In this document: positions 632 to 37,085 of the stretch, in pieces | Numbering within the stretch: position 1 is the first letter of the stretch | How the letters are laid out: the number at the start of each line of letters is the position of its first letter | IMG/VR virus record: IMGVR_UViG_3300035670_007423 | Coordinates: 1 to 38,245 of that record | Direction: 5' to 3' (one strand) | Length of the DNA: 38,245 nt | DNA from: a virus | Made by a program: the position numbers and the translations under genes | Notes under the pieces: model-generated | What the model saw: the letters and a program-made list of their open reading frames with translations, nothing else | Told to the model about the DNA's origin: nothing | The model's database searches: none

Positions 632-632
632 A

Positions 633-16736: not shown

Positions 16737-16766
16737 ACTTCGGAATGAGCGAATAAATCTATCCCT

Positions 16767-16795
16767 ATGCTAGCAAGCACGCATGATGCTTGCAA
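16767..16795 (-). promoter_or_regulatory. Proposed promoter of the small-gene operon
   Basis: Minus-strand -35 TTGCAA (16790-16795), 17-base spacer and -10 TAGCAT (16767-16772). A DnaA box is 18 bases upstream of the -35 at 16814-16822. The spacer and -35 overlap a direct repeat (16773-16803), likely an operator. Confidence 0.5.
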
Positions 16796-16803
16796 GCACG
16801 CAT
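16773..16803. repeat. Direct repeat within promoter, candidate operator
   Basis: GCAAGCACGCAT occurs at 16773-16784 and 16792-16803. In addition GCAAGCA (16773-16779) and TGCTTGC (16787-16793) form an inverted repeat. The sequence covers the spacer and -35 of the minus promoter, so a bound protein would block it. Confidence 0.55.
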
Positions 16804-16813
16804 AGAAGAAACC

Positions 16814-16822
16814 TGTGGATAA
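16814..16822 (-). promoter_or_regulatory. DnaA-box sequence between divergent promoters
   Basis: TTATCCACA on the minus strand; the surrounding 16 bases CTGTGGATAACGGATC (16813-16828) are identical to 6557-6572. It lies where the plus-strand promoter at 16848 would need its -35, so it may replace it. Confidence 0.5.
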
Positions 16823-16847
16823 CGGATCTGCTCCTCGAGAAACAGCG

Positions 16848-16853
16848 TATACT
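16848..16853 (+). promoter_or_regulatory. -10 element of plus-strand micro-gene operon
   Basis: TATACT. No recognisable -35 at the usual distance; the DnaA-box repeat occupies that place, which suggests a promoter needing an activator. Expected start of RNA near 16860, giving a leader of about 140 bases. Confidence 0.4.
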
Positions 16854-16875
16854 AAAGGGAGGATCGTACATTGAA

Positions 16876-16969
16876 AGGGAATGGTGAGTGGATCCGCGGG
16901 ACTATTCCAGGTGAGGGCAATACCCTAATGTGGCACCTGGTCGCTTCCCTCTCCCGCAGGGATCCCGCG
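16876..16969 (+). ncRNA. Nested-hairpin leader RNA
   Basis: Non-coding and upstream of four micro-genes. Three nested stems can form: outer CGCGGGA (16895-16901) with TCCCGCG (16963-16969); middle CCAGGTG (16907-16913) with CACCTGG (16934-16940); inner AGGG (16914-16917) with CCCT (16923-16926) and a five-base loop. AGGGAA (16876-16881) can pair with TTCCCT (16945-16950) as a competing arm. I match it to no riboswitch class from memory. It may be a cis-regulatory leader or the 5' part of a separate small RNA. Confidence 0.5.
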
Positions 16970-17001
16970 AACCCGCTCATCATCACTGAAAGGAGATCAT
17001 C

Positions 17002-17067
17002 ATGTTCTGGTGGACTTGCTATATTCTTTGGTCTGCGGGCGAGATGATGTACGTCTGCGCCGCTTGA
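17002..17067 (+). CDS. 21-residue hydrophobic micro-protein
   Basis: Starts ATG after a very good ribosome-binding site (AAAGGAG at 16989-16995, spacing 6). The product MFWWTCYILWSAGEMMYVCAA is hydrophobic and aromatic with two Cys, probably membrane-associated. First of four plus-strand micro-genes. It may also serve as a leader peptide whose translation opens the next gene. Too short for normal gene callers. Confidence 0.55.
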   Translation: MFWWTCYILWSAGEMMYVCAA

Positions 17068-17078
17068 AAGGAGATATC

Positions 17079-17186
17079 ATGGACTGGACACTGTTTTGGC
17101 TGAAGTTCTGGGAGGACGTGTTCCGGGACATGAGAACACGCCGCGTCGGGAACGTCATTTTCGTCACCAAATGGAGGAAGAAGTGA
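17079..17186 (+). CDS. 35-residue amphipathic basic micro-protein
   Basis: ATG preceded by AAAGGAG (17067-17073, spacing 5), which starts right at the stop of the first micro-gene. Sequence MDWTLFWLKFWEDVFRDM then RTRRVGNVIFVTKWRKK: an aromatic amphipathic helix followed by a basic tail, suggesting binding to membrane or to a host protein. The next gene begins inside its end by a GTGA overlap. Confidence 0.6.
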   Translation: MDWTLFWLKFWEDVFRDMRTRRVGNVIFVTKWRKK

Positions 17187-17377
17187 AGAAGTACTCTTTC
17201 GAGGAAAAGAAAGCGATGCCTCGTTGCCATCATTGCGGAGATGTGGTGGATGTGTCTCTCCCCCACTTTCGCTTTGCTGGGAACAGACATGAGCTGTACT
17301 GGCACGCCCAACCCCGTCAGTGCATGGGGAAGGATATGGTCTACATCGTCCTCACGGTGAAAGGAGGTGTCACTTGA
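17183..17377 (+). CDS. 64-residue zinc-finger-like protein
   Basis: Starts at GTG 17183, overlapping the previous stop (GTGA), with GGAGG five bases upstream. CHHCGDVVDV is a Cys-x2-Cys knuckle and RHELYWHAQPRQC gives His and Cys ligands, a complete set for one zinc. The rest is a beta strand (MVYIVLTVKGG). An earlier ATG at 17171 lacks a ribosome-binding site. Possible role: small phage protein that binds a host enzyme or nucleic acid. Coupled by overlap to its neighbours on both sides. Confidence 0.7.
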   Translation: MKKYSFEEKKAMPRCHHCGDVVDVSLPHFRFAGNRHELYWHAQPRQCMGKDMVYIVLTVKGGVT

Positions 17378-17559
17378 AACACTACTGCTGCTATTGGTGC
17401 AGCCGCCTGGTCCCGGAAGATCAAGCGGTGAGCGCCCGGCTGAACGGCGGCGTCTACTGGTGGCACCGTGGGTGTCATGACAAGGACCCGTTGTTTCCTC
17501 ATCAACCCCAAAAGAAAGCTGTCCTCGACTATAGCCGGGATAGCTGGCTTGATGAGTGA
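17374..17559 (+). CDS. 61-residue Cys/His zinc-binding-like protein
   Basis: Starts at TTG 17374, overlapping the previous stop (TTGA), with GGAGG six bases upstream; any ATG start would lack a ribosome-binding site. HYCCYWCSRLV gives Cys-x2-Cys and WWHRGCHDK gives His-x2-Cys, a likely treble-clef-like single zinc site, followed by a charged tail ending DSWLDE. Similar in style to the 64-residue neighbour but not a copy of it. A further AGGAG follows its stop at about 17561 with no good start codon behind it, perhaps the remnant of a fifth gene. Confidence 0.65.
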   Translation: MKHYCCYWCSRLVPEDQAVSARLNGGVYWWHRGCHDKDPLFPHQPQKKAVLDYSRDSWLDE

Positions 17560-17629
17560 AAGGAGCGTGATCCCCATCTCTCGGCCCACAGAGGCCCCGT
17601 ATATATCATCGGCTCACAAGGCCACCTGT

Positions 17630-17645
17630 CCCCCTATTCGGGGGG
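17630..17645. terminator. GC hairpin around a stop codon
   Basis: CCCCC (17630-17634) and GGGGG (17640-17644) around loop TATTC. The stop of the methyltransferase gene (minus TAG at 17634-17636) lies in the loop and stem base. Lies where minus and plus transcripts converge. The same hairpin core is at 18260-18273. It has no T-run, so termination by itself is uncertain. Confidence 0.5.
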
Positions 17646-18254
17646 CATTTGTTCCAATAACTCACGAAACAATTGCGCCGGGATGCGCCCCCTATCCTTT
17701 GCCCCGTCTATCCCTTGTGTTCCCGTCCGCGCCCCTCGTGGTGCTGACTCGTGACAAGGCATACCATTCTTGCATATCGGCTTTGGCTTCCACCACGTTG
17801 CGTTTGTCCAAATATCTGTCGGCTTCATGCGCGTATCTCCGTACTGGCAATACGTCACGGTATGTCGCACCCCCCCCATACGTTTCATGAACTCCTCCAT
17901 GAATGGCATCTTGCGGAGTTTACCTCTAGGGTTCTCGATGAACCACCATTTCGGTCCGATCTCCTCGATAAGGTCAATCGTTGTTGTTGCCAGTTCCATG
18001 GCGAGCCGTGCACTGTCGGTCTTGGGTGTGTGATCGTGGTTCCAATTCCGCCCAATGACAGCGACGCTGAACCCTTGGCATGGGGGAGAAGCCCACAGCA
18101 TATCGACCCCCGTTATTGGTTCCCATTTTCGTATATCCACGCACTCATCAGGTTCAAGTGATGGGTCATCGTCTACGGTGTGTGTCGTATGGCCTGCATC
18201 CTCCATGATCTTGCTGAAGGATTTAGTGCCGGAGAATAGTTCGAGAGTTCGCAT
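17634..18254 (-). CDS. DNA (cytosine-5) methyltransferase, compact
   Basis: A 206-residue enzyme. MRTLELFSGTKSFSKIMEDAGH is the S-adenosylmethionine loop (motif I), ASPPCQGFS holds the catalytic Cys59 (motif IV), and WWFIENPRGKLR is motif VI with Glu107-Asn108. RIPAQLFRELL at the C-terminus matches the closing motif. It is only two thirds of the usual length and has a very short target-recognition region, a form known from phages. Expected role: methylation of phage DNA against host restriction, or of specific sites. There is no partner endonuclease in the window, so it is an orphan enzyme. Its stop lies within a hairpin. Confidence 0.85.
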   Translation of the reverse strand: MRTLELFSGTKSFSKIMEDAGHTTHTVDDDPSLEPDECVDIRKWEPITGVDMLWASPPCQGFSVAVIGRNWNHDHTPKTDSARLAMELATTTIDLIEEIGPKWWFIENPRGKLRKMPFMEEFMKRMGGVRHTVTYCQYGDTRMKPTDIWTNATWWKPKPICKNGMPCHESAPRGARTGTQGIDGAKDRGRIPAQLFRELLEQMPPE

Positions 18255-21733: not shown

Positions 21734-22105
21734 ATGGTCACGCTCACGATCCCCGGGCGCATCCCCTCGAAGAAGAATAGCAAGCAATGGATCATTCGTG
21801 GCTCCAAGCGCTTTCTCGTCCCGAGCAACGAACACCGTGCCTGGCATGACGGGGCGCTGTGGATGCTGAAAGGCGCGGAGAAGGTAGGGGAAACAGAGTG
21901 GATCCGCGCCCGCTTCTTCTTCCCGGATAACCGTGTGAAGGACCTCTCGAACGCATGGGAGTCCGTCGGGGACCTCCTGGTGGATGCCGGGATCCTTGCG
22001 GATGACTGCTGGCAAAAGACCGGGCCGCTCATGCTGGAACCCGGGGGGATCGACAAGGAGAACCCCCGAGTCGAGCTTGAACTCCATGAGAAAGCCCCCG
22101 TCTAG
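21734..22105 (+). CDS. RusA-like Holliday junction resolvase
   Basis: A 123-residue protein. GRIPSKKNSKQWI is the N-terminal RusA motif, and the acidic residues Asp70 (VKDLSN), Asp80 and Asp90-Asp91 (GILADDCW) correspond to the metal-binding Asp residues of RusA; the Lys cluster follows the DNA-binding loop. It resolves four-way junctions in phage recombination and packaging as a dimer. ATG 21734 is chosen as the Met directly before the conserved TIPGRIPSK motif; the longer form from 21548 would include the promoter and hairpin. It is the only large plus-strand gene here and is convergent with the lysis genes. Its stop TAG sits in a hairpin. Confidence 0.85.
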   Translation: MVTLTIPGRIPSKKNSKQWIIRGSKRFLVPSNEHRAWHDGALWMLKGAEKVGETEWIRARFFFPDNRVKDLSNAWESVGDLLVDAGILADDCWQKTGPLMLEPGGIDKENPRVELELHEKAPV

Positions 22106-22158: not shown

Positions 22159-22337
22159 GCTGGTTTGTTGAGGTACTTCGTAATCTCTCCGAGCGCAAGG
22201 CCAAGGAGGGTCGTCCCCCATACCGGGACCTGGAGATCGACCGCGTTATCCGTCACAAAGACGATCACCGCGGCAGCGATCATGGCTCCAAGCCGCCACC
22301 CGAAAGACTTGAGCCGCTTTACGAGCTGTTCGTTCAT
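22155..22337 (-). CDS. Holin-like protein
   Basis: A 60-residue protein: basic N-terminus (LVKRLKSFGWR), membrane segment 1 at about 16-34 (LGAMIAAAVIVFVTDNAVDL), a short loop, membrane segment 2 at about 38-54 (VPVWGTTLLGLALGEITKYL) and a basic end. Two-helix small proteins next to endolysin are typical holins, which form the membrane lesion that starts lysis. It overlaps the endolysin stop by ATGA. From memory, short proteins ending with a LGLxLGEIxKYLN helix occur in CPR-linked phages. Confidence 0.75.
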   Translation of the reverse strand: MNEQLVKRLKSFGWRLGAMIAAAVIVFVTDNAVDLQVPVWGTTLLGLALGEITKYLNKPA

Positions 22338-23437
22338 GCTGTTTTGAAGATGGTACTAATTCTTGCCGACGGATCGACCTTGAGCTCCGCCGCCACGACC
22401 TCTGCATACCGCTTCGGATCGTTGTGATCCGATGACGGGGCATAGATCGCAAAGAGCTGCTCGATCGTGAGCTCGGAACTGTTCTTGAGTCCAAGTTTCT
22501 GCGCCTCCCGGTTATACGTTGCCGAGGTTCCGTTGATGATGGTCTTGAGGAGATTCCGAAGATAGAGCTCCCCGGTCGCGTAGTCACGGAAGATCGCATA
22601 TCCAGACTGATCCGAGGAGACTCCCTCCCGATCCTCCCCAACCGTGCCATAGATCGCCCGATAGCCGGAACGGGAGAATCTGGCATTCCCGGGATTATTG
22701 TTTCTTTGCGACCGGGATCCCTTCTTCCACCCTTCGTGTCTCCTGATCGCGAGGAGGAGCACAGTGAGCCGTTCTTCATTCATGGCTTTCCACATGGCTT
22801 GTAATGTATCGAGCCGTCGCCAGAACCCTAGGATGATCTCCGTGAGGTACGGTTGTGACACCACCTCGCGCCATGCGTTCCGCACAATAAGCTCCCCGAG
22901 ATTGCGCGCACGATTCCCAGTCATTGAATACGTGTCCATCTCCTGGTCGTACAGGTCCATGGTGTCGTTCGTCATCGCTCCATTTCGCCTGGCGTTCGAG
23001 TGGAAACAGTGGAGGAGCTCATGGGTGAGCACCCGAACGAGATCCTTTTCTCCCCACTCCGGACTTGTTCCAATTTGGACCACGTTCGCCCCCTCCCAGG
23101 GCTCCCAATGGGTCCAATGACGGAGCTGTTCCCTTGCGAACGGTCCATATTCCACCCGGGAAACGTCATACAAGAACACGATCGCATTGTAGAGCTTCCC
23201 GGGGACCCCCTCCTCCTTCATGAGCGTGCGCATACCGTCGAGGCCCGCCAACATCTCCCCGGAGGGGCCTAGAACGTCAAAAGCGGTCAATTTGAAGCTC
23301 CGGGTGGGCGTTATGGACCGTTGGGTAAAGCGCGTCTCCACGGGGCTCCTAGAGGCAAAGAAGGCCGCTGTCTCCTTGAGTGCGTCTCCGATGGGGTAGG
23401 GAACGCCGTTATTGAGGATGAGAACGTCGTATCTCAT
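22334..23437 (-). CDS. Two-domain endolysin: zinc metallopeptidase plus muramidase
   Basis: A 367-residue protein. Residues about 60-200 contain VLTHELLHCFHSN with His139-Glu140 and His143, a zincin signature; the third ligand may be His or Asp nearby (EMDTYSM). Residues about 225-367 form a lysozyme or transglycosylase-like domain: AIRRHEGW with catalytic Glu235, NNPGNARF (247-254), GYAIFRDYATGELYLRNLL and IYAPSSDHNDPKRYAEVV. The pair would cut peptide stems and glycan strands. There is no signal peptide, so it needs the holin. It is joined by ATGA overlaps to the 33-residue peptide before it and the holin after it. A metallopeptidase fused to a muramidase in this order is unusual. Confidence 0.75.
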   Translation of the reverse strand: MRYDVLILNNGVPYPIGDALKETAAFFASRSPVETRFTQRSITPTRSFKLTAFDVLGPSGEMLAGLDGMRTLMKEEGVPGKLYNAIVFLYDVSRVEYGPFAREQLRHWTHWEPWEGANVVQIGTSPEWGEKDLVRVLTHELLHCFHSNARRNGAMTNDTMDLYDQEMDTYSMTGNRARNLGELIVRNAWREVVSQPYLTEIILGFWRRLDTLQAMWKAMNEERLTVLLLAIRRHEGWKKGSRSQRNNNPGNARFSRSGYRAIYGTVGEDREGVSSDQSGYAIFRDYATGELYLRNLLKTIINGTSATYNREAQKLGLKNSSELTIEQLFAIYAPSSDHNDPKRYAEVVAAELKVDPSARISTIFKTA

Positions 23438-23535
23438 GCAATATGCTTTAGTATATAAAGGAAATAGCAGACTGTCCCGACGAAGAGCACCTCATGCTCA
23501 TGCTCCAAATAGAAGTGTTTTATGGCATCTTTCAT
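23434..23535 (-). CDS. 33-residue membrane peptide of the lysis cassette
   Basis: ATG 23535 overlaps the stop of the giant gene (ATGA) and its own stop overlaps the endolysin start (ATGA), so the frame is fixed at both ends. Sequence MKDAIKHFYLEHEHE then VLFVGTVCYFLYILKHIA: a charged head and one membrane helix. It could be a pinholin, antiholin or spanin-like part. It is too short for ordinary gene callers but its placement is hard to explain by chance. Confidence 0.65.
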   Translation of the reverse strand: MKDAIKHFYLEHEHEVLFVGTVCYFLYILKHIA

Positions 23536-26500
23536 TTGATTTGTGACTGTATCTGCTGTCTCCGATATAGCTTCAGGAGCTCTTCGCTGACGAGCTTCGT
23601 CTTACGCGCCTTCGCAAGAAAGACGGAGAACTCCTCCGGACCCATCTCCGAGCGTGCCTCAATGAGGATCTTCACCCTATTTTCGTTCGTTTTCCCTCCA
23701 AGAAGAGCCGTGACGAGCTCGTTGTCGGGACCAAAGGCAGCATAGGAGTCGAACTTTTTGTCGATCGCGGCCTTTTTTTGCGGGGTGAGCTTCTCCCCTG
23801 GGTACACCTCATCCATAAACTGCTTCTTCATGAGGAGCACGCTCTCCCCGGCATGAGCCCGAGCTGCGTACTTCATGAGAGCAGGAGTCTCAATGTAGTC
23901 CTCCACGGGAGTGCTGGTTTCCCCGATCTTGCCCTCCTGCCTTGCCTCCTCTTCGAGATTCCGAGCCCCGGCGACATCCCCGGCGAGGATCCGCGTCTCG
24001 ATCTTCCGTCGGATGATGGATGCTCGCTCGCTCTTTTTCGCTTCCTGGTCGAGCACCTTGCCACGCCTCGCCCATGCGAGATTCTCTTCTGTTGGGGTAA
24101 AGCCAATGCCTCGCAATGCCGCCTCCCACGGCGTGTACTTCATCGGAACACCAGGCGATCGCTCCAAGAGCTTCCCCACCTGTGACCGAACTCCGTAGGT
24201 GTATCCTGCGTACGCCTTGAAGAAGTTACCTCCGAGCCCGTCCGGGACGAGCTTCGCTGCGGCCTCGTAGTACCGCTCCTGCATCGCAAGATCGTAGCCA
24301 CGCGAGAAACGGTCGATCATGCTTGCCCCAGCACCTCCCCACTTCACGATGTTCGTCGGGTCAGAGAGGATGGAATCAAACTGGAAAATGTCGATCGAGA
24401 CACGCCCGGAGAGATCTGCGCCAAAGACCGCAGGGATACCACGTGCCAGCGCAAGCTCCCACGTACTAAGCTCTTTCTTCAATTCATCATCGTCGTCTCC
24501 AACGATCTCGTTGTATATCCGAAGCCAGAGCTTTGCGAACGGTAGCGATAGCGCCCCGCCGAGGACCGCGGTGTAGAACATCTTTTTTCCAAACGCCATG
24601 AACTCCCGTTGAGAGAGATCGCGGGAAAGCTGGTACAGGAACGAACGAGTCCAGTGGGTAAAGACGAAGAGTGCACCAGCACGGCCCCTTTCCATCCTCG
24701 GGCGGTTCTGCTTTCCATAGCGGAAATGTATATCGTCGGAGATAGAGAGTGCTTGCCTATCCACCGTTGCCGGGTCTGCCCCGTTCGCGATGAGTACCCG
24801 TCGAGCGGCAATGAACGCCGGGACGCGGTTCACGTGGGACTCCACGAACGCCGTTGATGAGTACAGTGCCTTTGTCAGGGTATTGCTGATCGTCCGGTAG
24901 ATGGGATTCGATTTGAAGCCCATGAGCTCGGATGTCATTTCCCCACCAAGGCGACCGTTTTTGAGCAAGAACTCGACCGCTCCACGCTCTTCCTTCGTGA
25001 TATTCCCCGTCCACCAGGAGAGCATTGCCTTTGTGAGCGCAGCTTCCGCTCCGGCGATCTTTCGTGCTCCCTTCATGTACTTGGAGAGCTCCCCGGTCCC
25101 AACAGTCATATTCTGCGTCGCGTTCACCATGAGGTACGAGATATCGTTTGCGAGCATCCAAATGAACGCCGCTTGCTTCACGGTATTGAGCTCCGCAGTA
25201 TTCCCCATGTCGTAGGCGATCGCATCGCGCATCCACTTGTAGAACTTCTTTTGCCGTCTCGGGTCGATCGTCTGAAGTGCCTTGAAGTACATGGGAGCCG
25301 CTTCCATTTTAGTGACGTACCCAGCAAGCCCCGAGAAATAGTCAGCAAAGATCTTGTCTAGGTTCTCTGTCTCATACCCGGCGATGTTCATTCTCCGGAT
25401 GTAATACCGCCCAAATCCCTTCTCCTTGGACATATCTCGGATCCCTTGCACCACTTCCTGTCGAAACTCCTCGGGGACCTTCGAGCGGTTGATCGCGGAA
25501 ATGACATTCTCCGCGGTGAGGTGTTGCGCGGTGAAGAAGTCTACGTCTACGGAATCGAGCGTATCGAGGACGAACCGCGTATTGTCAGTGGATTCCAGCT
25601 CTGCGTATGCCTTACGCGCTTGTGATTCGGTCTTGTAGTCCTGCATCGAGACGGTTTTCCACCTCCCGCCTTCGTCCATCTCCTGCGATTTGATGACGTA
25701 CCTTCCATCCCATCGGTGAGGAATATACCCAACGCGGATCTTCCGGAACTGATTGATCTCGTCCTCCTTCACGCCATTCTCCTCCATCTTCGCGATCAGC
25801 ATGTCGTGGGCATACTCGAACGCTTCCCGAGTCTTGTAGTACGCGCCGATCGCTTTTGCAGAGGTGACCCCGAAGGTCGCCAATTCATTCTTGTTCCACT
25901 TGCGTACCTGTCTATCCCCTTCCGAAAGCGCCACATTCAGCACCTTCTTCTCTTCCGAAGGAAGATCGAAATACGGAGAGAGCATGTCTGCGAAGCGTCG
26001 GTCGATGCTCGCCTTCTTGATCCGTCGGGTATCGGCAACGGTCTGATATATATCTGCGCCTTTGAACTCATCTTGATCTTTGAGGTAGATATCCCGTGCT
26101 TGTGCGGTGATATCGTTGAGAAGGTTGATATCCTTCCTTGTAAGGTCCTTCTTGAAGAGATCCATTTCGCCTACGAGATCCTCCGGGACAGTTTTTCGCT
26201 GGTACCCCGCCTCTGCTAACCCGCGGAACCCGGAGAAGTCGAGCGTTAGGCCGTGTTCTCCGACGTAGGTGTACCGTGCGAGGTTCTGCGGGCGCTGGCG
26301 CACCGTGGGGCCAAAGCGCCGCATGTACATGACATCGTAGTAAAACCGCTGGAGCGCTTGTGCCTTCGTGACGTCCATTCCCAGGATCTCTCTGATCATG
26401 GTGGCGAGCTTCTTGAAGAACTCTGCCAATTTGTTCGCAACATCCCCGGACTTCCCAGTTTTCCAAAATGTTTCGAACCCACGGGCGATCGTCTCATCGT

Positions 26501-29500
26501 CTGCCAAGGCGTTCAATTCCGCCTTGGTCACGCCAAACTCCGGAAGCTGGTCGAGGTTATTGAGGACGAAGTGAACGACCTCATGCGCTGGGGTGACATC
26601 GAGCGTCTTTTCCGTGAACGCCATCGCCCCGGACACCGTGACTCCCCAGGCATCGACATCGGACGTACGCCCATCGAGCGAGAAGAGCGCCGGGGCTTTC
26701 TCCCCAGTAAGGATCTTGTCGAAGAAATGTACGTTGAAGTCGATCCCGAGGCGGTCTTTGAATTGCTGGAGGGTTTCCAACGTCTGTTCCTTGGAGATCA
26801 TCCGCGAGGCGATCTTACGTTCGAGCCACGCCTCCACTTCATCGAGCGTCTTGAACGACACTTGCTGGGTGAGCAGTCTCTCTCCAACGGCGTCTTTCGC
26901 CTTTGATCCAGTACTCTTCAGCATTGACGTAGGGACCGCGAGAACATGGATCGTATCTAGATGCCCACGGTCAAGCTGTCGTTCGAGGTCAAGATCCACG
27001 TACTGACCCGCTGCCCCATTGTGTCCGGAGAAGTAGATATATTCTTCTCCCTCCTGCAAGAACGGGATGCTTGTGAGCTGCGGCTCGATATGTTTCCGGT
27101 AGTTCTCCTGCTGCTGTTCGTTGAGTTCGGCAAGGCGCTCTGGACCAATGAGTTGTATTCTATCTTCCGGCGCAAAACGTCCAAGCTCGTCGCGACGCAT
27201 AAACTGTCGGGTATCTACAGCATCCCACTCTGCTTTGAGTTGGGCGCGGGTTTTGAGGATGTCAGGATTGAAAATTATCGTTGTGTCAGGATGTTTTCCA
27301 TTCACAAATGCTTTTTCAAGACCAATTTGCCCCTCAATATTGTTGAGAACATCATCGGTGAATCGGACCCCATCGTATCCTTCTTCTTTGAGTTTATTTA
27401 TCACTGATTCTGCGTTGTACTGCGGGAGTTTATTCAGCACCTTTATCTTCGCTCCCTTTGGCACAACGAACTCAAGGGTGTTTGGTTTGAACTTGCCCAA
27501 AGCACCACTATCTGTTCCATACTTGAACTCATCAGTCTGCATGAAGTTTGCCTGTGATCTTATTCGACTGAACCAGTCTGCGGCAACCCTATTCTCCGTT
27601 AGGTATATCTGTTTCCCTCGATTCCCAAATTGTGCCTTTCCAACATCGAACTTCTCAAAAGAAACACCCTCGCCTGTGCCGTGATAAAGTGTCTCCCCCT
27701 GCCACTTCACCCACTCTTCGAAGGACTGGCCAGATGCTTTGGCTTTGGCGATGGAGGAGGAAAGTGACCCATCTTTTATCTTGAATTGCGGGATCTGTCC
27801 TTCCGCCTGTTTCCTCTTTACCTCCTCCTCTTTAGCACGTTTCTGTGCGTCGATCTCGTCTTGTGTGTATTCTTTGAGATCTGTGGTGTTTGCAAAGAAG
27901 TCATCAAGGTGATCCTGAATGGACTTCCGGTTCCTGATCTCCTCCATGCGCTCGGCGGTGAAGCGCTCCAGGCGCTCGCCGAAGGTGCTATTGAGATCCC
28001 GGATACGCGCTTCGATATCCTCGACCGCCAAGACGAGCTTCTTGATCTCCGCGTCAATATCCGTGATCCGCTTCCTTTCCAGCGATTCTTTCATGCGCTT
28101 TACCTTCGCCTTGGACTTGGCGAGTTCTTTCTTCCATTCCGGGGCATACCGATCATATCCATACGCCTCGGTATCCTTGAGCGATGCCTCGTATCGTTTG
28201 ATGCTGCGTTCCTCTATCTCCATCTCCGATCGCAACGTCTCGAGATTCCGCTGTTCAGTGAGGATCCCAACGCGCTCATTCGCCATCCGCGCATTGTCAA
28301 ATGCGATCTCCAGCGTCGCCTTGGCCTTCGGATCGGTGATCAGCGCAAGCTTCTTCTCCTGTGGGTCTAGCTCATCCGTGTCGAACGTCTCCCCGACATA
28401 GGAGAACAGGTCGTTGATACGACCACCCTTCTGTTCGTACTTCTGATAGAGCACCACGTCCCCGGAGTTTTCCACCAACGGGTAGACGATCGGGGCAATG
28501 TTTCGCTTGTTCCCCTGCCTCCATACCCGGCCTTCCACTTGCTGTGTCTCCGTGGGATTCCATCCCAGAGAGAGGTTGATGGTCGTGTAGCCGCTCCCCT
28601 GGAGATCGATCCCCTCCCGAGTCGGCTTTCCCCCGATCAATATCTTTATCTCACCCTTGTTGAACGATTCCTTGATGTCCTCACGCTCGTCATTGTCCGT
28701 CTCACCGTTGATGATCCCCACCTCGCTCTCCTTGTAGCCAAGATGCTCCACGATGTAGTCCTTGATCATCCCGTGGTACTGCACCCCATGAGCACCGAAA
28801 TACAGGAATGTACCGTAATTCTTGGTCTTTTTGTCTGCCTTGAGCTTCTTGATGAGCTCCATCGAGTACTTGATCTTCGGGCTATTCTCGACAAGCTCCT
28901 CCTTTGTGAAGGTCGTCGGGGCAAACTCTTCGACGAAATACGGGGAGACGCTATTTGCAAGGGCGTATCCCATCGCAACAAGGTACGCTCCCGGGCGCAA
29001 ATCGTTCGCAGAGACAAGCCCTTCCATCTCCGGGTTCGCTTCGATCTGGTCTGCATCAGGGGATTCCTCTCCCTTGAGCATTGCTTGGATCCTGGCATTG
29101 TTCTCCTCCTGCAATTCGCTCATCGAAAGGATCGGGGTCATCACACGACGCTCCGGGCGGATCAGTGTCGGATCTTCGCGTCGGTCGATGTACTCGCGGA
29201 GAAGCGCTTGGAGTGCCGGAAGGTTCTTCCATGACTTCATCACATCTTTTGTGACGACGTTCCCCTTCTGGTCCATCTCCTCACTTGGGACGAAATTGGC
29301 AAACATCGCATAGAAGTCGTTGATGTTCTGGATCCCCATTTCGATCAACTTCGGTCGAGCGATGAATGAGAGGATGTTGTATACCTCGGTCGCATGGTTC
29401 TCGAATGGCGTTGCCGACGCGAGGAACACGTTGCCCCCGTATTTCTTCTGGATGTACTGGGAGGTGAGGAAAAGATGGACCGCCCGCTTCGATGGGGTAC

Positions 29501-32500
29501 CGCCAATAACCGTCGCAAAACGCTTTTTCCCTACATTATTCCCGGCTTCATCCTTCTCTGTCTTTGCTCCCTGGAACACCTTGCGATGGTTGTGCACCTC
29601 GTCGACGGAAATATGATCGAACCCAAGATCGGAGAAGTTGATGTCCCCTGCATACTTGAGTGCCGCGCCCATGATCTCCTGGATCTTCCCTTGCCCTTCT
29701 TCCTCTCCACGCTTTGTTTTGACCTCTTGCCAAAGCGCATCATTGAGATCCTGGGTCAGCTCCTCGATCTCCTTCTGCGCGAATCCTAGGCGGAGGAGCC
29801 CTTCATGCGAGATAAAGGTCACTTCGCCATCCTTGATCCAGTCTTTCGGTTCTCCGCGCTCTGCGTACATCTTTCGTTGTACATCAGCGGTGAAGCCGGA
29901 AAGGTTTACGAGCCCGATATTGGGGAACGCCAGTCTGAATGTTTCTACCCATGTCTGCTCGATCGTCGATTTCGGGACGATAATGAGCGGGCGCTTCGTG
30001 TTCCCGGCTTGCATATTCGCGACCGTCGCCGTTGCAATGCCGAGCGTCTTTCCTACCCCGACCCCCCAAGCGAGCACGCCCGTGCGCTTCTGAACCAGGA
30101 ACGCCACCCCGCGCTTCTGTGTCGGGGACAGCTCCAACGGCTTCCCTCCCTTGAACGTGTCGCTCATCCCGTCGATCTGCACCGGGATATCCTCATAGCG
30201 AGTATTGACGGTGTTGTTCTTCGTCTCGTTGTAGTTATCAACGATCTCCTTTTGTACGTCCTCCGGTAGCCGCTCCTTGATGTAGAGGTTGAAGAGGCGC
30301 TTCGCAGAGTCTCGGATTTGAGGCATGATCTGCTTCGTTCCCTGCCTTGCATTGCTCCCCATCATCACGCGGTCGATGTCGCTCTCATACACGCCATTCG
30401 GGAGCGCTGGCTTGTTGCGATGAAGGTAGTGGAGGAACGAGCGGAGCACCGTACTATCCCCCACCTTTACATTGAGAATGTGGCGGTCCTGTGGGTCAAA
30501 GCTGATATCGTTGATGCTCACCTCTGGCGGTTTGATCGCCAACAGCATCATTTTTTGCCGTTCATACTGCTCTTTTGGCATCTGCACCTTGTCCTCTTCG
30601 AGTTGTGCGAGGCGCTTGACGATGTTTCCGGAGTAGTAAATGGTGTTCGAATACCACTTCCCACCAGCGAAGTTATACTTCTGCTGATCTTCGTTCGATA
30701 TAAAGCCCTTTATCGACCCGTCGTTTGCGGTGTTCGCCCACATATCCAGCTCGGCCTTCGTGTACTGCCGATTCGTCGCGGAGATCACGCGATTCTTGGT
30801 CTTTTTTCCACTGATCGGCTCATAGATCTGCGACAATGAGTTCTTCCGAGTCCCCTTTTTCTTTGTCGTCTTTGCCTTTGCGCTCTTCTTCTTCGCAGGT
30901 TTCGGGTCCTCCTTCGGGGATTGCTTCACTTCGTCCGGGGCTTTATTCTCGACGACGATCTTATCAAGCGCGGAGAGATCTCCCGTCACATACGTCTCTT
31001 CCTTCCCAAAACGATTCTTCCGAGTCTTTGTTTCCCCAAGGATGTTCTGTGTGTTGTGCTCAAAGTACCTGTCCCCGGTAATCAGAGTCATCCTTGCCCC
31101 GTGCCCTGCGACACTATCCGTTGTATCTTTCCGAAATATGACGATATCCGTCCCTATGCTCGTATCCTCAAACGTCCCTTCGGGGAGGCGATACGCCGCT
31201 TCGAGCGTCCCGAGTTTCACGATCGCTTCCTTCCCCTTGCTCGTTTGCTTCTGCAAGAACGACGAGTTCACTACATAGGCCACCGTGCCGCCCTCCTTCA
31301 CTAGATCGAGCCCGCGCTTGATGAAGTATTCCTCCCAGCGGTCGATCTTCTCCTCTTCCCCCTTGCCTTTGATAAAGCCGCCCCGGGCTCCGTACGGAGG
31401 GTTCCCGATAACGAGATCGTACTGCGGCCGCTCCTCCTTCTGGAAGAAGATGTTTTGAAAATCTCCGATCTCAATACTGCTCTCCGGGTTGATGATCTGC
31501 GCGACCGTCCCACTCACAAGGTCGAGCTCTATCCCATCCATCGAAACCCCGTCCGGCTTGAGCATGATGTACCGCCCGGTACCAGCGGAGGGCTCGAAAG
31601 CTGTCTCCACGGTTCCTGCATATTGCAAAGCGAGCTCCCATGTTTTCTGTACCACCTTGTTCGGGGTGTAGAACTCGGAGAGGAGGCCCTTCCCTTCCGC
31701 TCCTGCGCTCTCCTTTCCTCCTGCCCCGGAGTACAGCTTCAAAAGCCCAATCTCATCCTCGGTATAATCCTCTCGGTTCGTAGAATAGCCACGCTCTTCG
31801 AGGAGCGCTTTCACTTGATCGTTGATCGACTGTCGGCCTTTCTTACCGACCTTCTCGACTATGACATCTGTTCGCTCTGCGCTAAGTCCTGCTCCAAGTT
31901 CATCAACACGGTCTGCAAGCTCGCCTGTTCCGAGCTCATGAGTGCCTGTATCTGCGGCACGATCATCTCCTGCGGGTACGTCGAGAGCGTCGGGTACGCT
32001 TCCGGCGTTATCTGGAGGAATATCTCGTCGCTCGTCAGTTTCTTGTTCATTGGTTTCTATTTTACCACGGGTGAATCCTTGGTCAAGTAGATTCTGGGAC
32101 CACACGTCAATGAGCTCATCGTTCGGACGGATCGGCATATCCTTTATCCGTGCGTAGTCATTCGTGAAGGTCTTTGGAACCATCTGCCCATCCACGATTT
32201 CCAGCACGATCTCCGGATCGCGCATCACGTCCCCATTCTGAATACCGATGTGGGAGATAAAGACTTTGTTGCTCTGGCGTTCGATGGAGAGATCCATCCA
32301 TGGGGGATTCTCGACGGACAGGAGCGACTCCCCAACATTGGCATTGAGGTCAAAGTTGTTTGCCTCGGCGATCTGCATGATCACCTTGGCGAGCTTGTTC
32401 TTCTGCTCTGGCGCGATGTCTCCTTGCTTGTTCTCGAACACCTCCGGCGCTATTTCTCTATCTCCAGTATGTCCTGCTCGATCTCCGAAAGGAGCTGCTC

Positions 32501-35480
32501 CTCCGTCTTTTTCGGATTCGCTAACTTCGCTTTGTTGAGCGACTGCTGTATCAGCTGCGGGTTCCTCTCCTGCAATATCGGGTGCTTTTCGAGATTCATA
32601 CGCTGCGCTATTTGATAATGTTCTCTCTCCCTGATCGACAATTTTCGTGAGTTTTTCTGCAAGCTGTTCAACGGTGAGCCCGTCCATCTTCACCCAATCA
32701 TTCGCAAGCCCTTTGTATTTATCTTCCTTGGTCGTCGCTCGGACGAGTGTCCCCATGCCGTATTTATCTCCGGCAATAACTTCGGTTTCATCCTTTCCCC
32801 ACTGTCCCTGGACCTGTACGTAGATCCCGATATTCGTCCCCGGCTTCCAGAAGATCGACGTGACCGCCCCTGCGTCTATCTGTCCACCCGGGTTGTACGT
32901 GACGGAGATATCCTTCCCTTTCTTGTCTGTGTCCGGCTCATAGCCCATTTGCTCACGCACCGCCGTCATGTACTTCTTGATCCCTTTGTAGAAGTCTTTT
33001 CGCACCGGAGCGTGCTCATTTGTCTCCGCTGCATAAGCGGATTCATTCACAAAACGATCCGGAAACACCATCGTGGTGTCGGTCTTTTTCGCTTTCTTCC
33101 CCTTTTTCTCTTCCGGTTTCTTGTTTGGATCAAACTCCGCGATCTCTTGCATCGCCCCTACTGCATTGTCGTAGATCTTCTGTGTTTCATGCCGTTGTGC
33201 GACTTCATACGCCTGATCGTGTGCTTTCTGAAGTTCGACAAATCCCCCTTTTGCGTATGCTTCCTCTATAGATTCTCCCCAGAACTTCCCGAAGTCAGTG
33301 GACCACATTACAGGTGGCTTGTTGTAATCCACCGGAGCAGCAAGGTTCGCTTCATCCCACGCAGCAGTCCACTCCTTCATCGAAGCCATCATCTCCTTAT
33401 GGCTCTTCCCTTCCATCTGCTTCATGAACTCCTGATCCTGCGCTGGAGCTCGGATAACCCCACGCTCAAAGGCTTTTGTCCCTAATACCTTCGCAGAAAT
33501 TGCTTGCGCGATCTTCGTAATTTCCTTCTCTTGCTCCTTCTCATCCGTGCGCTTGGCAAGCTCGGTCTTTATTGCTTCAAGCTCCTTTTGTGTTTTTTCA
33601 ACTGGCGCGACATCGAAGCGATCATTCCGATAAAGCATCGGAAGCCCGGACACTGGCTCCTTTGCAATGATCCCATCTTCCCGCTGTGACACGACTTCCA
33701 CTTGTTCCGATCTATCCCCGTGCTTTGCGGTAACGATCACCTGCGCTCCCTTCTCAATCTTCGGGCCCGGGATGGTCTTTTTCATCTTCTTCTCCGGCTT
33801 CTGTGTAACCTGCTGCTCCAGCTCGGTCACTTTCTTGGCGACCTCATCCGTGCGCTTGGCAAGCTCGGTCTTTATTGCTTCAAGCTCCTTTTGAAGGTAT
33901 TTCTTCTCGGAACCAACAGCTATTTCAATGCTCTCCTGCATCTGCTTCATTTGATCAGCAAGCGCTTGGCTATTCTGTGACTGGAGCCGCGATTCGATCT
34001 CGACCGCCTTTGCAATATCCTCAACCTCCGCCGCAACATCGTCGGCGTTCAGGATGCCGGAAGCATCAGCGGGCTTCACGCCTTTTGCGATATCCATGAT
34101 GGATTGTGCGTGTTCCGCAGTCACCCCTGTCTGATCGACGATCGACCGTTTGACATCCTCCTCTGTGTATACCGAAAGCGCATTGTTGATATCATCCGCA
34201 AGCCCTGACTCAGTAATGACCTTCTCGGTATCCTTCTCCCACTTCATCTGCTTGCCTTTGTTGAGGAGCGCGGCTGTTCCAGCGAACGCCGTACCGGGGA
34301 TAGCAAAGCCCACTAACTCCGTCGATAACTGTTCCGCTGTAGGCCACTTCCACTCCTGATCTGATAGCCCTAACTCCTTGAGCGCTCCGTGCATAACATC
34401 CCCGACCCGCTCTTCGAACATTTCTCCGGCGACACCGTTCCACCCGATCCTCTGAAGCATCGTATTGAGCACCTTGAGCTTTGTCCCCACGGGACCAGTA
34501 TTCGTATTGAAAAATGCCTTCACAAAAGCGCTCTTGAACGCAGTATCTTGTACCTTCGACCCAAGCCCAGTGAGGACACCACCAGTACGCTCGGAGACTG
34601 TCTCGACCCATGCTTCACCAAAGCTTTTCCGTAACGCTTCGCCAAAGTCCTGTCCTGGCCTCTCAATGATCGCCGTGACCTTTCCGGCCTCATCCTCTGT
34701 GAAATTGTAGATCGGCGTCATCTTCTCCACCGTGCTTGCGCCAATATTCACGAACATTGCCGGAGCAGTCTGCGCCGTCGCTCCCGCCGTTACCCCGGCT
34801 GCCTTGAGCGCAAACTTTGCTGCCCGCTTCTCCAATAGGGCTTGCCCTTCCTTCGTCAAAAACTTCTTGAGTACGGTTTCTGCCCCCTCCATCGCCGCCT
34901 TCCTTCCTGCTGTATATATTCCACCAGTAAGTCCAAGCTCTACTGCAAACGGAATCGACTGCGTGACAAGGTTCGCTACGTCATATCCCCATGACGTATC
35001 CTGCTGGCTCCGTTTGATGTAGTCGCGCATGAGCGCAACGTCCCGTGCGCTTGCAGTATCATCTTCCAGTCGTTTCCCGGCATTATAAAGCTCGATCGCG
35101 TGCGCCGCCTCATTCCCACCTTGAAGGAACGGGAGCACTTTTGCTGGCTGATCTTTGATCTCTCGAAACGCTGTGGTGAACGTCTTTTCCGGGAGTGGCC
35201 CGGGGACATTCGTCACATTGAGCTCCTCTTCCGTCTTTACCCCACCAAAAAAGAAGTTCGCGATTCCTTTCCCTGTATTCTTGCTCCAATCGTTGTATTT
35301 CTGAAAAATACTACGAGATTCGCTCGGCTGGATCGGAGCAGGAACAGCAACCTCTTCCACCGCAGTCTCCACCGTCGGGCTATAGAAATGCTGCTCTGCG
35401 CTCGCAGCTTGCAGGAACTTGTTGCCACTGGTCTTTTTTGGTTCGTCTCCTGCGACACTCGAAAGAAAGGTGTTCGGCAT
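23532..35480 (-). CDS. Giant polyvalent virion protein (3,982 residues)
   Basis: One uninterrupted frame of 11.9 kb. Order of domains: unknown N-terminus with hydrophobic helices (about 230-250); coiled coils with an exact 17-residue repeat (530-546 and 631-647) around an SH3-like segment; unknown beta domains at 840-930 and 1040-1110 (PPWMDLSIE...HIGIQNGDVMRDPE); N6-adenine methyltransferase with FEPSAGTGR (1295) and NPPY (1360-1363); SF2 helicase with GVGVGKT (Lys1811), DEVH (1960-1963), SATPFE and QVEGRVWRQG (Arg2318); ADP-ribosyltransferase-like LYHGTG (2598-2603); zincin HEVVH (2966-2970); a GYIPHRWDGRY motif near 3247; LPD38-like C-terminal region (3560-3900) with a membrane-like helix. 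It resembles P1 DarB (methylase plus helicase) and the polyvalent proteins thought to be injected with DNA. Likely job: defend incoming DNA and modify host targets. Confidence 0.85.
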   Translation of the reverse strand: MPNTFLSSVAGDEPKKTSGNKFLQAASAEQHFYSPTVETAVEEVAVPAPIQPSESRSIFQKYNDWSKNTGKGIANFFFGGVKTEEELNVTNVPGPLPEKTFTTAFREIKDQPAKVLPFLQGGNEAAHAIELYNAGKRLEDDTASARDVALMRDYIKRSQQDTSWGYDVANLVTQSIPFAVELGLTGGIYTAGRKAAMEGAETVLKKFLTKEGQALLEKRAAKFALKAAGVTAGATAQTAPAMFVNIGASTVEKMTPIYNFTEDEAGKVTAIIERPGQDFGEALRKSFGEAWVETVSERTGGVLTGLGSKVQDTAFKSAFVKAFFNTNTGPVGTKLKVLNTMLQRIGWNGVAGEMFEERVGDVMHGALKELGLSDQEWKWPTAEQLSTELVGFAIPGTAFAGTAALLNKGKQMKWEKDTEKVITESGLADDINNALSVYTEEDVKRSIVDQTGVTAEHAQSIMDIAKGVKPADASGILNADDVAAEVEDIAKAVEIESRLQSQNSQALADQMKQMQESIEIAVGSEKKYLQKELEAIKTELAKRTDEVAKKVTELEQQVTQKPEKKMKKTIPGPKIEKGAQVIVTAKHGDRSEQVEVVSQREDGIIAKEPVSGLPMLYRNDRFDVAPVEKTQKELEAIKTELAKRTDEKEQEKEITKIAQAISAKVLGTKAFERGVIRAPAQDQEFMKQMEGKSHKEMMASMKEWTAAWDEANLAAPVDYNKPPVMWSTDFGKFWGESIEEAYAKGGFVELQKAHDQAYEVAQRHETQKIYDNAVGAMQEIAEFDPNKKPEEKKGKKAKKTDTTMVFPDRFVNESAYAAETNEHAPVRKDFYKGIKKYMTAVREQMGYEPDTDKKGKDISVTYNPGGQIDAGAVTSIFWKPGTNIGIYVQVQGQWGKDETEVIAGDKYGMGTLVRATTKEDKYKGLANDWVKMDGLTVEQLAEKLTKIVDQGERTLSNSAAYESRKAPDIAGEEPAADTAVAQQSEVSESEKDGGAAPFGDRAGHTGDREIAPEVFENKQGDIAPEQKNKLAKVIMQIAEANNFDLNANVGESLLSVENPPWMDLSIERQSNKVFISHIGIQNGDVMRDPEIVLEIVDGQMVPKTFTNDYARIKDMPIRPNDELIDVWSQNLLDQGFTRGKIETNEQETDERRDIPPDNAGSVPDALDVPAGDDRAADTGTHELGTGELADRVDELGAGLSAERTDVIVEKVGKKGRQSINDQVKALLEERGYSTNREDYTEDEIGLLKLYSGAGGKESAGAEGKGLLSEFYTPNKVVQKTWELALQYAGTVETAFEPSAGTGRYIMLKPDGVSMDGIELDLVSGTVAQIINPESSIEIGDFQNIFFQKEERPQYDLVIGNPPYGARGGFIKGKGEEEKIDRWEEYFIKRGLDLVKEGGTVAYVVNSSFLQKQTSKGKEAIVKLGTLEAAYRLPEGTFEDTSIGTDIVIFRKDTTDSVAGHGARMTLITGDRYFEHNTQNILGETKTRKNRFGKEETYVTGDLSALDKIVVENKAPDEVKQSPKEDPKPAKKKSAKAKTTKKKGTRKNSLSQIYEPISGKKTKNRVISATNRQYTKAELDMWANTANDGSIKGFISNEDQQKYNFAGGKWYSNTIYYSGNIVKRLAQLEEDKVQMPKEQYERQKMMLLAIKPPEVSINDISFDPQDRHILNVKVGDSTVLRSFLHYLHRNKPALPNGVYESDIDRVMMGSNARQGTKQIMPQIRDSAKRLFNLYIKERLPEDVQKEIVDNYNETKNNTVNTRYEDIPVQIDGMSDTFKGGKPLELSPTQKRGVAFLVQKRTGVLAWGVGVGKTLGIATATVANMQAGNTKRPLIIVPKSTIEQTWVETFRLAFPNIGLVNLSGFTADVQRKMYAERGEPKDWIKDGEVTFISHEGLLRLGFAQKEIEELTQDLNDALWQEVKTKRGEEEGQGKIQEIMGAALKYAGDINFSDLGFDHISVDEVHNHRKVFQGAKTEKDEAGNNVGKKRFATVIGGTPSKRAVHLFLTSQYIQKKYGGNVFLASATPFENHATEVYNILSFIARPKLIEMGIQNINDFYAMFANFVPSEEMDQKGNVVTKDVMKSWKNLPALQALLREYIDRREDPTLIRPERRVMTPILSMSELQEENNARIQAMLKGEESPDADQIEANPEMEGLVSANDLRPGAYLVAMGYALANSVSPYFVEEFAPTTFTKEELVENSPKIKYSMELIKKLKADKKTKNYGTFLYFGAHGVQYHGMIKDYIVEHLGYKESEVGIINGETDNDEREDIKESFNKGEIKILIGGKPTREGIDLQGSGYTTINLSLGWNPTETQQVEGRVWRQGNKRNIAPIVYPLVENSGDVVLYQKYEQKGGRINDLFSYVGETFDTDELDPQEKKLALITDPKAKATLEIAFDNARMANERVGILTEQRNLETLRSEMEIEERSIKRYEASLKDTEAYGYDRYAPEWKKELAKSKAKVKRMKESLERKRITDIDAEIKKLVLAVEDIEARIRDLNSTFGERLERFTAERMEEIRNRKSIQDHLDDFFANTTDLKEYTQDEIDAQKRAKEEEVKRKQAEGQIPQFKIKDGSLSSSIAKAKASGQSFEEWVKWQGETLYHGTGEGVSFEKFDVGKAQFGNRGKQIYLTENRVAADWFSRIRSQANFMQTDEFKYGTDSGALGKFKPNTLEFVVPKGAKIKVLNKLPQYNAESVINKLKEEGYDGVRFTDDVLNNIEGQIGLEKAFVNGKHPDTTIIFNPDILKTRAQLKAEWDAVDTRQFMRRDELGRFAPEDRIQLIGPERLAELNEQQQENYRKHIEPQLTSIPFLQEGEEYIYFSGHNGAAGQYVDLDLERQLDRGHLDTIHVLAVPTSMLKSTGSKAKDAVGERLLTQQVSFKTLDEVEAWLERKIASRMISKEQTLETLQQFKDRLGIDFNVHFFDKILTGEKAPALFSLDGRTSDVDAWGVTVSGAMAFTEKTLDVTPAHEVVHFVLNNLDQLPEFGVTKAELNALADDETIARGFETFWKTGKSGDVANKLAEFFKKLATMIREILGMDVTKAQALQRFYYDVMYMRRFGPTVRQRPQNLARYTYVGEHGLTLDFSGFRGLAEAGYQRKTVPEDLVGEMDLFKKDLTRKDINLLNDITAQARDIYLKDQDEFKGADIYQTVADTRRIKKASIDRRFADMLSPYFDLPSEEKKVLNVALSEGDRQVRKWNKNELATFGVTSAKAIGAYYKTREAFEYAHDMLIAKMEENGVKEDEINQFRKIRVGYIPHRWDGRYVIKSQEMDEGGRWKTVSMQDYKTESQARKAYAELESTDNTRFVLDTLDSVDVDFFTAQHLTAENVISAINRSKVPEEFRQEVVQGIRDMSKEKGFGRYYIRRMNIAGYETENLDKIFADYFSGLAGYVTKMEAAPMYFKALQTIDPRRQKKFYKWMRDAIAYDMGNTAELNTVKQAAFIWMLANDISYLMVNATQNMTVGTGELSKYMKGARKIAGAEAALTKAMLSWWTGNITKEERGAVEFLLKNGRLGGEMTSELMGFKSNPIYRTISNTLTKALYSSTAFVESHVNRVPAFIAARRVLIANGADPATVDRQALSISDDIHFRYGKQNRPRMERGRAGALFVFTHWTRSFLYQLSRDLSQREFMAFGKKMFYTAVLGGALSLPFAKLWLRIYNEIVGDDDDELKKELSTWELALARGIPAVFGADLSGRVSIDIFQFDSILSDPTNIVKWGGAGASMIDRFSRGYDLAMQERYYEAAAKLVPDGLGGNFFKAYAGYTYGVRSQVGKLLERSPGVPMKYTPWEAALRGIGFTPTEENLAWARRGKVLDQEAKKSERASIIRRKIETRILAGDVAGARNLEEEARQEGKIGETSTPVEDYIETPALMKYAARAHAGESVLLMKKQFMDEVYPGEKLTPQKKAAIDKKFDSYAAFGPDNELVTALLGGKTNENRVKILIEARSEMGPEEFSVFLAKARKTKLVSEELLKLYRRQQIQSQIK
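33540..33590 (-). repeat. 51-base exact direct repeat, copy 2
   Basis: Identical over 51 bases to 33843-33893 and in the same frame, 303 bases (101 codons) apart. Encodes QKELEAIKTELAKRTDE. No variation even at third codon positions, so recent or gene-conversion maintained. Confidence 0.9.
33843..33893 (-). repeat. 51-base exact direct repeat, copy 1
   Basis: First copy in the direction of translation. The 252 bases between the copies encode a beta-rich segment (GAQVIVTAKHGDRSEQVEVVS) that looks like an SH3 barrel; homologous recombination between copies would remove it precisely in frame. Confidence 0.9.
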
Positions 35481-35483
35481 ACG

Positions 35484-37079
35484 TTAGATTCCCATTTTTA
35501 TTTGTACTGCCCTTGGTAGTTCGTCTTTATATTTTTCAACAAACTCTGGGTTGATGTTATCCAACGGAGGGAACTTCTTGAGGAAGGCAACCTTTTCTGT
35601 TTCTGTCTCCCACCCATTATAGATCTGAATGTACAAATATGGGTCCACATATCCGTCTGCACCACGCCCGTTGAACACCGACCCGTCATTCGCTGTCGCC
35701 CCGGACTCAAGCATCGTCTCTGCTTGCGTCATGAGTTTCTCCTTGCTGGCTCCGGAGGGGTTCTCCTTGCGATCCTGTATCAACGAGTAGTAGTTCGACT
35801 GCTGGGCTCTTTCTGTCTTGATCTGTTCCTGCTTCATCTCCTGTTCGAGCGATGCCTTCGTTGCGTCATCAGAATACTTCAGCATGGACGACTGCACCAT
35901 CTCGAGCGGGATCTCATACTTCTCTGCGAGCTTGGCGATGAACGCCGCTCGCTCTTCCGGGGTATTGAGCGACTGATATGCCCCAAGCGCTGCAGGGGCG
36001 ATAGAGTCTGCGAGGCGTGTCTGATCGAGAATTGCTGCCTTTTCTGCCTTCTGCTTTTCCAGTGCCGCCTTCTCCACATCCATCGACAGCTGGTGGAGTT
36101 TCGTGATCTCGTCGAGTTTCGCCGCGTTCGCCTTCTCCATGAGCTCCATCGACTTGTTGAACAGCGCAATGTTCTTCTCATCCCGCGCTTGCTTCGCTTG
36201 CGCGATCAGTTGGAGCTTTTGTGACTCGATCTCCGAAATCCTCGCAATTCCATCCAATTCCTCCGTCATGAGCCCGCCCTCCTCGATCGACGGGGCATAG
36301 CGGGAACGCCCGGCGGCGATCCCTGCGATCCGCTTCCCTTCGAGCATCCGAGCGTTCGTGTCCATCATCCGCTTGATCCTTGCGTCGTATGTGGCGGTGA
36401 TGGAAGCGATCAGAGCGGCGGTCGTTTCGTCGCTTGTCTGCATCTGCCGAGCGAGCTGCTCCTGGCCAGTGCGAAAATCGTTGAGCTTCTGTTGCGTAAG
36501 CTCGCGAACTTGCCTTGCATACGGATCCTCCATTGCCCCTCCCTGGGCCCCTGTAGCGCCCGTAGCGACCGTTTTCGCGCCAGAGGCCCCATCGGTCGTC
36601 TTTCCGTCCCCGGACACCGTGGCTGCCTCTTTTGGTGGGACAAATGGCTTCCAGTCTGCTGGCATGTCCTCCATCGCTCCACGTATCTCGTCCTCATCTG
36701 GCGCACCATACCCAGTGAACGGATCCTCATTCCTGGAAAAGAGGTATCCGGCTGCTCTCCCGTACTTGCTGTTCGCGTATGGAGCGTTTCCTTCTTCCTG
36801 TGTCTGTGCCAGCATCGCCCGCGTACGAGCTACCTCCTGCGCCAATTTGAGCTCATTCGTGGCATACGATGTCCTGGACGGCGTGCTGGTGGCTACGATC
36901 GGGGAAGTGGCTGCGCTCGCCTTCTTTGGATCATATCCACCAGTCTGTGCGTTGAACGCCTGGATCGGAGCCCCACCCTGCGCAGCGTACGCCGGATTCG
37001 CGACGAACTGCCCGTAGGTGGCGCTTTTGTAGTCCGTGTCTCGGACGATCGGCCCGGCTGTTTGGGTGTTGGGGTTCAT
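35484..37079 (-). CDS. Coiled-coil virion protein, probable internal protein
   Basis: A 531-residue protein rich in Ala, Gln, Glu and Lys. N-terminal 1-60 is Ala/Tyr/Gly-rich and flexible (NPAYAAQGGAPIQAF); 60-200 has Thr/Ala/Gly linkers; about 210-440 is a long helical coiled coil (LTQQKLNDFRTGQEQLARQMQ, MELMEKANAAKLDEITKL), and the end has WETETEKVAFLKKFPPLDN. It stops 3 bases before the giant gene, so the two are made together and may form the internal injected complex. A start at TTG 37085 is possible; ATG 37079 is preferred. The length and lack of enzyme motifs fit an internal core or tail-needle protein. Confidence 0.65.
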   Translation of the reverse strand: MNPNTQTAGPIVRDTDYKSATYGQFVANPAYAAQGGAPIQAFNAQTGGYDPKKASAATSPIVATSTPSRTSYATNELKLAQEVARTRAMLAQTQEEGNAPYANSKYGRAAGYLFSRNEDPFTGYGAPDEDEIRGAMEDMPADWKPFVPPKEAATVSGDGKTTDGASGAKTVATGATGAQGGAMEDPYARQVRELTQQKLNDFRTGQEQLARQMQTSDETTAALIASITATYDARIKRMMDTNARMLEGKRIAGIAAGRSRYAPSIEEGGLMTEELDGIARISEIESQKLQLIAQAKQARDEKNIALFNKSMELMEKANAAKLDEITKLHQLSMDVEKAALEKQKAEKAAILDQTRLADSIAPAALGAYQSLNTPEERAAFIAKLAEKYEIPLEMVQSSMLKYSDDATKASLEQEMKQEQIKTERAQQSNYYSLIQDRKENPSGASKEKLMTQAETMLESGATANDGSVFNGRGADGYVDPYLYIQIYNGWETETEKVAFLKKFPPLDNINPEFVEKYKDELPRAVQIKMGI

Positions 37080-37085
37080 AAACAA

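Follow-up and report, generated by a model that had tools for sequence, protein, structure and literature searches.

A single open frame of 3,982 residues in a late-gene block

The window, by which we mean the whole stretch of DNA analysed here, is a linear IMG/VR virus sequence of 38,245 bases. Its minus strand carries, at 23532..35480, the gene of a giant polyvalent protein (the giant in the following), a single open frame of 3,982 aa that starts with ATG and contains no internal stop. A stop-free run of that length has a probability of about 1e-81 by chance at the base composition of the gene, and codon-position GC is coding-like and even along the whole gene. All motifs named in the initial annotation are present in this one frame and in the order given there: FEPSAGTGR at residue 1295, NPPY at 1360, GVGVGKT at 1806, DEVH at 1960, QVEGRVWRQG at 2314, LYHGTG at 2598 and HEVVH at 2966. 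Compared with PHROGs, the giant matches a DarB-like antirestriction family (3.6e-74; profile length 4,647 positions), phrog_1685 (5.2e-131) and a DNA methyltransferase family.

The genes for the terminase large subunit, the portal, a capsid candidate, a tail-fibre-like protein and a 533-aa protein lie on the same strand as the giant gene, with a muramidase-like gene just after it, a gene order that resembles those of BcepMigl, PEp14, POI1126 and Parlo. The co-stranded terminase, portal and tail-fibre-like genes provide the late, virion-gene neighbourhood by which polyvalent proteins are recognised, and support a late-gene context for the giant. The nearest relatives of the terminase (12630-14261, minus strand) are on three short IMG/VR contigs (L191-L193, 39-43% identity), one of which (L193) also carries an adjacent portal at 25% identity; the phage group looks undescribed.

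The 533-aa protein directly upstream of the giant (35484..37085, minus strand) takes the place of the virion proteins JC1 gp68 and BcepMigl gp68. It has no similarity to these positional equivalents and no match in Pfam, PHROGs and NCBIfam profile searches. The 367-aa protein downstream (22334..23437, minus strand) contains HELLH as well as a muramidase-like half bearing NNPGN, and its residues about 231-361 match phrog_2276 (3.3e-8) and the endolysin family phrog_873 (1.1e-5). Judged from these matches it is probably a lysis or wall-cutting protein, and it may stand in, in trans, for the wall-cutting domain found at the N-terminus of many podovirus giants; no N-terminal transglycosylase was detected in the giant itself.

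Domain architecture of the giant

All features of the giant described below lie on the minus strand. Its N-terminal part contains a small domain of function not known (33330..33497, residues 662-717), which matches phrog_19203 in PHROGs with E 2.7e-4 and recurs in the solo methylase-helicase protein of contig L018 (match E about 5e-4). It is followed by a stretch (32499..32993, residues 830-994) common only to the giants of Pavtok, PEp14 and Stean, with a tblastn match to the phage Pavtok giant (E 2e-4, 29.5% identity) and a blastp match to PEp14 (E 9e-6). A DUF6908 domain occupies 32073..32336 (residues 1049-1136; Pfam PF21849, 1.7e-16, 60.7 bits vs a cut-off of 27). According to Iyer et al. 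(2017, PMC5512222), LPD36 'nearly always' precedes the methylase in DarB-like proteins; Pfam scans of the giant gave no LPD36 match, nor did those of the giants of PEp14, BcepMigl, POI1126 and Parlo, and in our giant DUF6908 stands in that place. DUF6908 also precedes the methylase, by similarity, in the stand-alone methylase-helicase protein of contigs L018/L022, and could be a domain that partners methylase-helicase proteins of this lineage.

The N6-adenine DNA methyltransferase, with its FEPSAGTGR and NPPY motifs, spans 30981..31853 (residues about 1210-1500) and matches Eco57I (3.9e-10) and N6_Mtase (6.3e-8) at about residues 1332-1470. The SWI2/SNF2-type helicase/translocase spans 28119..30254 (residues 1743-2454) and matches SNF2-rel_dom (3.5e-7) and Helicase_C (1.5e-10) at residues 1788-2323. 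All four Pfam matches exceed their cut-offs and the hallmark motifs of both enzymes are intact, so that the methylase-helicase pair (the dyad) initially proposed is recovered, in the arrangement that marks DarB-like proteins, an adenine methylase with an SNF2-type helicase C-terminal to it.

An ART-PolyVal-like domain follows at 27348..27692 (residues 2597-2711; putative H2600, Y2626 and D2703). The slice around LYHGTG matches PF18760 ART-PolyVal with E 1.7e-5 at 26.0 bits, under the cut-off of 31.2. We built an independent ART HMM from six IMG/VR PLxRFG giants with a confident ART-PolyVal domain, leaving out the window, and this profile gives 28.7 bits on the slice from our giant, whereas none of 500 shuffles exceeds 7.3. 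In the corresponding alignment (A5), YHG 2599-2601 and D2703 (of 'YDG') fall in columns that are invariant across the seven sequences, and Y2626 stands at the strand-2 position, completing a putative H-Y-D active site; the H and D agree with the H-Y-D site given for ART-PolyVal by Iyer et al. (2017). The ART-like domain that had been read from LYHGTG is thus supported by two profiles and by its predicted active-site residues, although the structure predicted for it was of too low quality to be of use (pLDDT 44).

The HEVVH motif (26571..26585, residues 2966-2970), with E2996 (26493-26495) as a downstream Glu and candidate third ligand, marks a putative zincin-like metallopeptidase. Because 5.7% of whole-protein shuffles and about 0.9% of shuffles of the 400-aa stretch before the tail module, its usual site in the family, contain an HExxH by chance, the motif by itself is weak evidence. 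As to its placement, 45 of the 75 PLxRFG giants have an HExxH at 250-650 residues before that module, vs 0.9% expected per giant. HEVVH aligns with an HE conserved at least 90% in 37 giants, and the H/E/H/E columns, including the downstream Glu, are invariant in a 39-row alignment whose rows were picked for having HExxH. A peptidase HMM built with the window left out scores 6.4 bits on this stretch, the same as shuffles, and Foldseek gave no fold match for the low-confidence AlphaFold model of the region. Since the placement of the motif fits and the profile and fold tests failed, we treat the metallopeptidase that the initial annotation had read from HEVVH as likely by position but unproven.

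The C-terminal PLxRFG ('tail-700') virion module covers 23955..25730 (residues 3251-3842) and is identified by NCBIfam NF032893 (1.9e-33, 115.9 bits vs a cut-off of 100) and by alignment A2. The C-terminus had been called LPD38-like, and this we reject: Pfam returns zero matches to LPD38 (PF18857) in the giant, while BcepMigl scores 118.5 bits, and a profile comparison of the giant's tail with the BcepMigl LPD38 region gives a probability of only 7.7%. LPD39, found in 36 of 37 alignment members, was not detected in the giant.

Slice-wise profile search and structure prediction had been suggested as checks. The former recovered methylase, helicase and PLxRFG above cut-off and the ART-like domain below it, and returned neither LPD38 nor a peptidase; the latter yielded no confident model for either of the two regions modelled. 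Methylase, helicase and PLxRFG, all above curated cut-offs, together with the ART-like domain place unrelated activities in one chain, as is characteristic of polyvalent proteins, and the combined PHROG, Pfam and NCBIfam profiles bear out the polyvalent, DarB-like reading.

The dyad belongs to a stand-alone lineage

The dyad aligns with a stand-alone protein of Leptospira phage LE1, about 30% of residues being identical across 1,240 aa (E about 1e-147), and with a stand-alone SNF2-related protein of a Treponema plasmid at 36.7% identity over 71%. In a tree of 44 dyads it groups with 16 stand-alone proteins (SH-aLRT 100), a placement in which it forms a long branch and for which the solo dyads were fetched with the giant's own dyad as query, so that the sample is not neutral. 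The AU test rejects a tree that forces the giant's dyad together with the 26 sampled giants. A search of bacterial genome contigs with the dyad alignment gave no match, nor did a comparison of the giant's C-terminal third with contigs of solo-dyad phages.

These comparisons show, at the level of sequence, that the dyad belongs to the stand-alone phage and plasmid lineage of LE1, whereas residues 830-994 and the PLxRFG tail are of the giant type, and the protein is therefore a mosaic. A solo-type dyad set in a giant chassis appears to be the simplest reading. That dyad and chassis come from different lineages is also what an assembly chimera of two phages would produce, and the giant is known from a single metagenomic contig for which we found no close relative. 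However, the coding frame is uninterrupted, base composition is even across all joins, and other giants share the same overall layout, for example that of contig L051; we consider a chimera extremely improbable and reject it on frame continuity and composition. The mosaic giant provides a tangible example of a module exchanged between methylase-helicase proteins that occur free and giants that are ejected from virions, in keeping with the repeated incorporation of free modules into polyvalent proteins already proposed by Iyer et al. (PMC5512222).

Comparison with related giants

Single-sequence scans of viral contigs revealed no close relative of the giant. Viral contigs often encode giants that combine methylase, HExxH and PLxRFG; 39 PLxRFG frames with a detected methylase were found besides ours, near-duplicates included. 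The podovirus giants of Erwinia PEp14 (4,914 aa), Ochrobactrum POI1126 (4,841 aa) and Serratia Parlo (3,764 aa) likewise hold methylase, helicase, HExxH and PLxRFG in one chain, and their genes likewise close the virion block and are followed by a lysis gene; the BcepMigl giant has 4,658 aa and an LPD38 tail. Unlike PEp14, POI1126 and Parlo, our giant has no detected LPD39, LPD37/LPD3 or N-terminal transglycosylase, and has DUF6908, the ART-like domain and a dyad of another clade. The Parlo giant has its helicase before its methylase, the reverse of the order found here.

At least three other IMG/VR giants (L051, L033 and L084) combine the four enzymes with a PLxRFG tail. Only L051 (IMGVR_UViG_3300024239_000003) has them in the same order as our giant, that is methylase, helicase, ART-PolyVal (E 3.6e-16), HExxH and PLxRFG, but it differs in carrying LPD3 and LPD39 and in having a dyad inside the giants' clade; in L033 and L084 these parts are arranged differently, and L084 has HExxxH in place of HExxH. 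The Acetonema longum prophage giant WP_004096050.1, likened here by its description rather than by residue comparison, shares the four enzymes (SNF2 ATPase, adenine methylase, zincin-like peptidase and ART) and adds a GGDEF domain (Iyer et al. 2017, PMC5512222). P1 DarB, of about 251 kDa, is again likened by description and not by alignment, and is the archetype of the dyad as a fusion of methylase and SF2 helicase. The lineage closest to the giant's dyad comprises SNF2-related proteins of plasmids and the LE1 methylase-helicase protein of 1,971 aa; unlike the giant these are stand-alone, and the LE1 protein lacks HExxH and has no detected PLxRFG module.

Since longer relatives and giants with the same enzymes are already on record, neither the length nor the domain set is new, and to place this combination at an extreme of the known range was too strong, the same enzyme set being known and, once, the same order. 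Judged by its sequence, the giant is a DarB-like polyvalent protein and a divergent addition to the known DarB/PLxRFG giants, and its main oddity is its mosaicism, a dyad from another lineage than in its relatives. The initial interpretation is thus partly supported, being right in kind, wrong on LPD38 and overstated on rarity.

Packaging and proposed mechanism

Two homologues are known from virions. JC1 gp69, a Bcep22-like DarB-like giant of 4,515 aa, was found in CsCl-purified virions with 51 unique peptides by mass spectrometry (PMC9144972). P1 DarB is packaged, its N-terminal 30 residues sufficing to send a reporter to the capsid (PMC9024508), and is antirestrictive against type I enzymes, from which it shields DNA in cis (PMC5512222). 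By homology, the giant is likely packaged in the virion.

A packaged and injected multi-enzyme, DarB-like and built on a PLxRFG chassis, is in our judgement probably the best explanation of the locus as a whole. The giant would be a late product that, judging from its homologues, most likely enters the virion and is ejected into the new host before or together with the DNA. On the model of DarB, ATP-driven translocation of the SNF2-type motor along the entering DNA would be coupled to methylation of that DNA by the fused N6-adenine methylase, as a mark against restriction. The ART-like domain may ADP-ribosylate one or more host proteins, and the HEVVH domain, if a real zincin, could split the giant itself into working pieces or cleave proteins of the host.

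All sampled giants have the PLxRFG module in common, including many of 950-2,500 aa in which no methylase was detected, and neither a separate tape-measure protein nor a separate internal virion protein was identified in the window. Both observations would fit a giant packaged mainly for a structural part in ejection, as the internal virion proteins of podoviruses are, helping to form the DNA conduit with its enzymes as minor passengers. The intact methylase and helicase motifs and the conservation of the dyad as a 1,240-aa unit in solo proteins argue against such a role, which we regard as unlikely. The stand-alone phage and plasmid proteins that are the dyad's closest relatives raise another alternative, an unpackaged giant that works intracellularly, in counter-defence or replication, as those proteins would. 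Here, however, the dyad is fused to a virion-type PLxRFG tail, the gene lies in the late block and the Bcep22-like giant is virion-associated, and we judge an intracellular enzyme to be less likely still. The injected multi-enzyme remains the reading that we prefer.

Host and further genes

The gene at 7597-7893 (minus strand), inside the phage structural block, encodes a KhpA/KhpB-type KH RNA-binding domain. At E 0.01 it has matches in 290 of 380 Patescibacteria genomes (35.4 bits at best) and in 123 of 400 Chloroflexota genomes (26.9 bits at best), and at 1e-4 in none of 299 Pseudomonadota genomes; as thresholds and genome sizes differ, bits and not counts are to be compared. The terminase matches 2 of 380 Patescibacteria genomes, which is uninformative for the host, and the tail-fibre-like protein also 2 of 380, at borderline scores. 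The CPR (Patescibacteria) host initially proposed is therefore no more than hinted at by the one KH-domain gene, the terminase and tail-fibre searches being of no help. In a scenario that we hold to be doubtful, a CPR-host phage would have swapped the dyad of a podoviral ejected giant for one of the stand-alone lineage, giving a modular injected multi-enzyme suited to a reduced epibiotic cell. If the CPR host were true, the strategy of an injected multi-enzyme would extend to these minimal bacteria.

Elsewhere in the window, a terminator-like GC stem (17627-17647) lies at the end of about 900 bases without a convincing gene (16737-17633). A RusA-like Holliday junction resolvase gene (21734-22105, plus strand) lies between minus-strand genes, and a stand-alone RNase HI-like gene is found at 6571-7050 (minus strand). 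At the contig end, a run of glycosyltransferase-like genes (2-2032, minus strand), one of them a clear Glycos_transf_2, possibly serves glycosylation of the virion or of the host surface.
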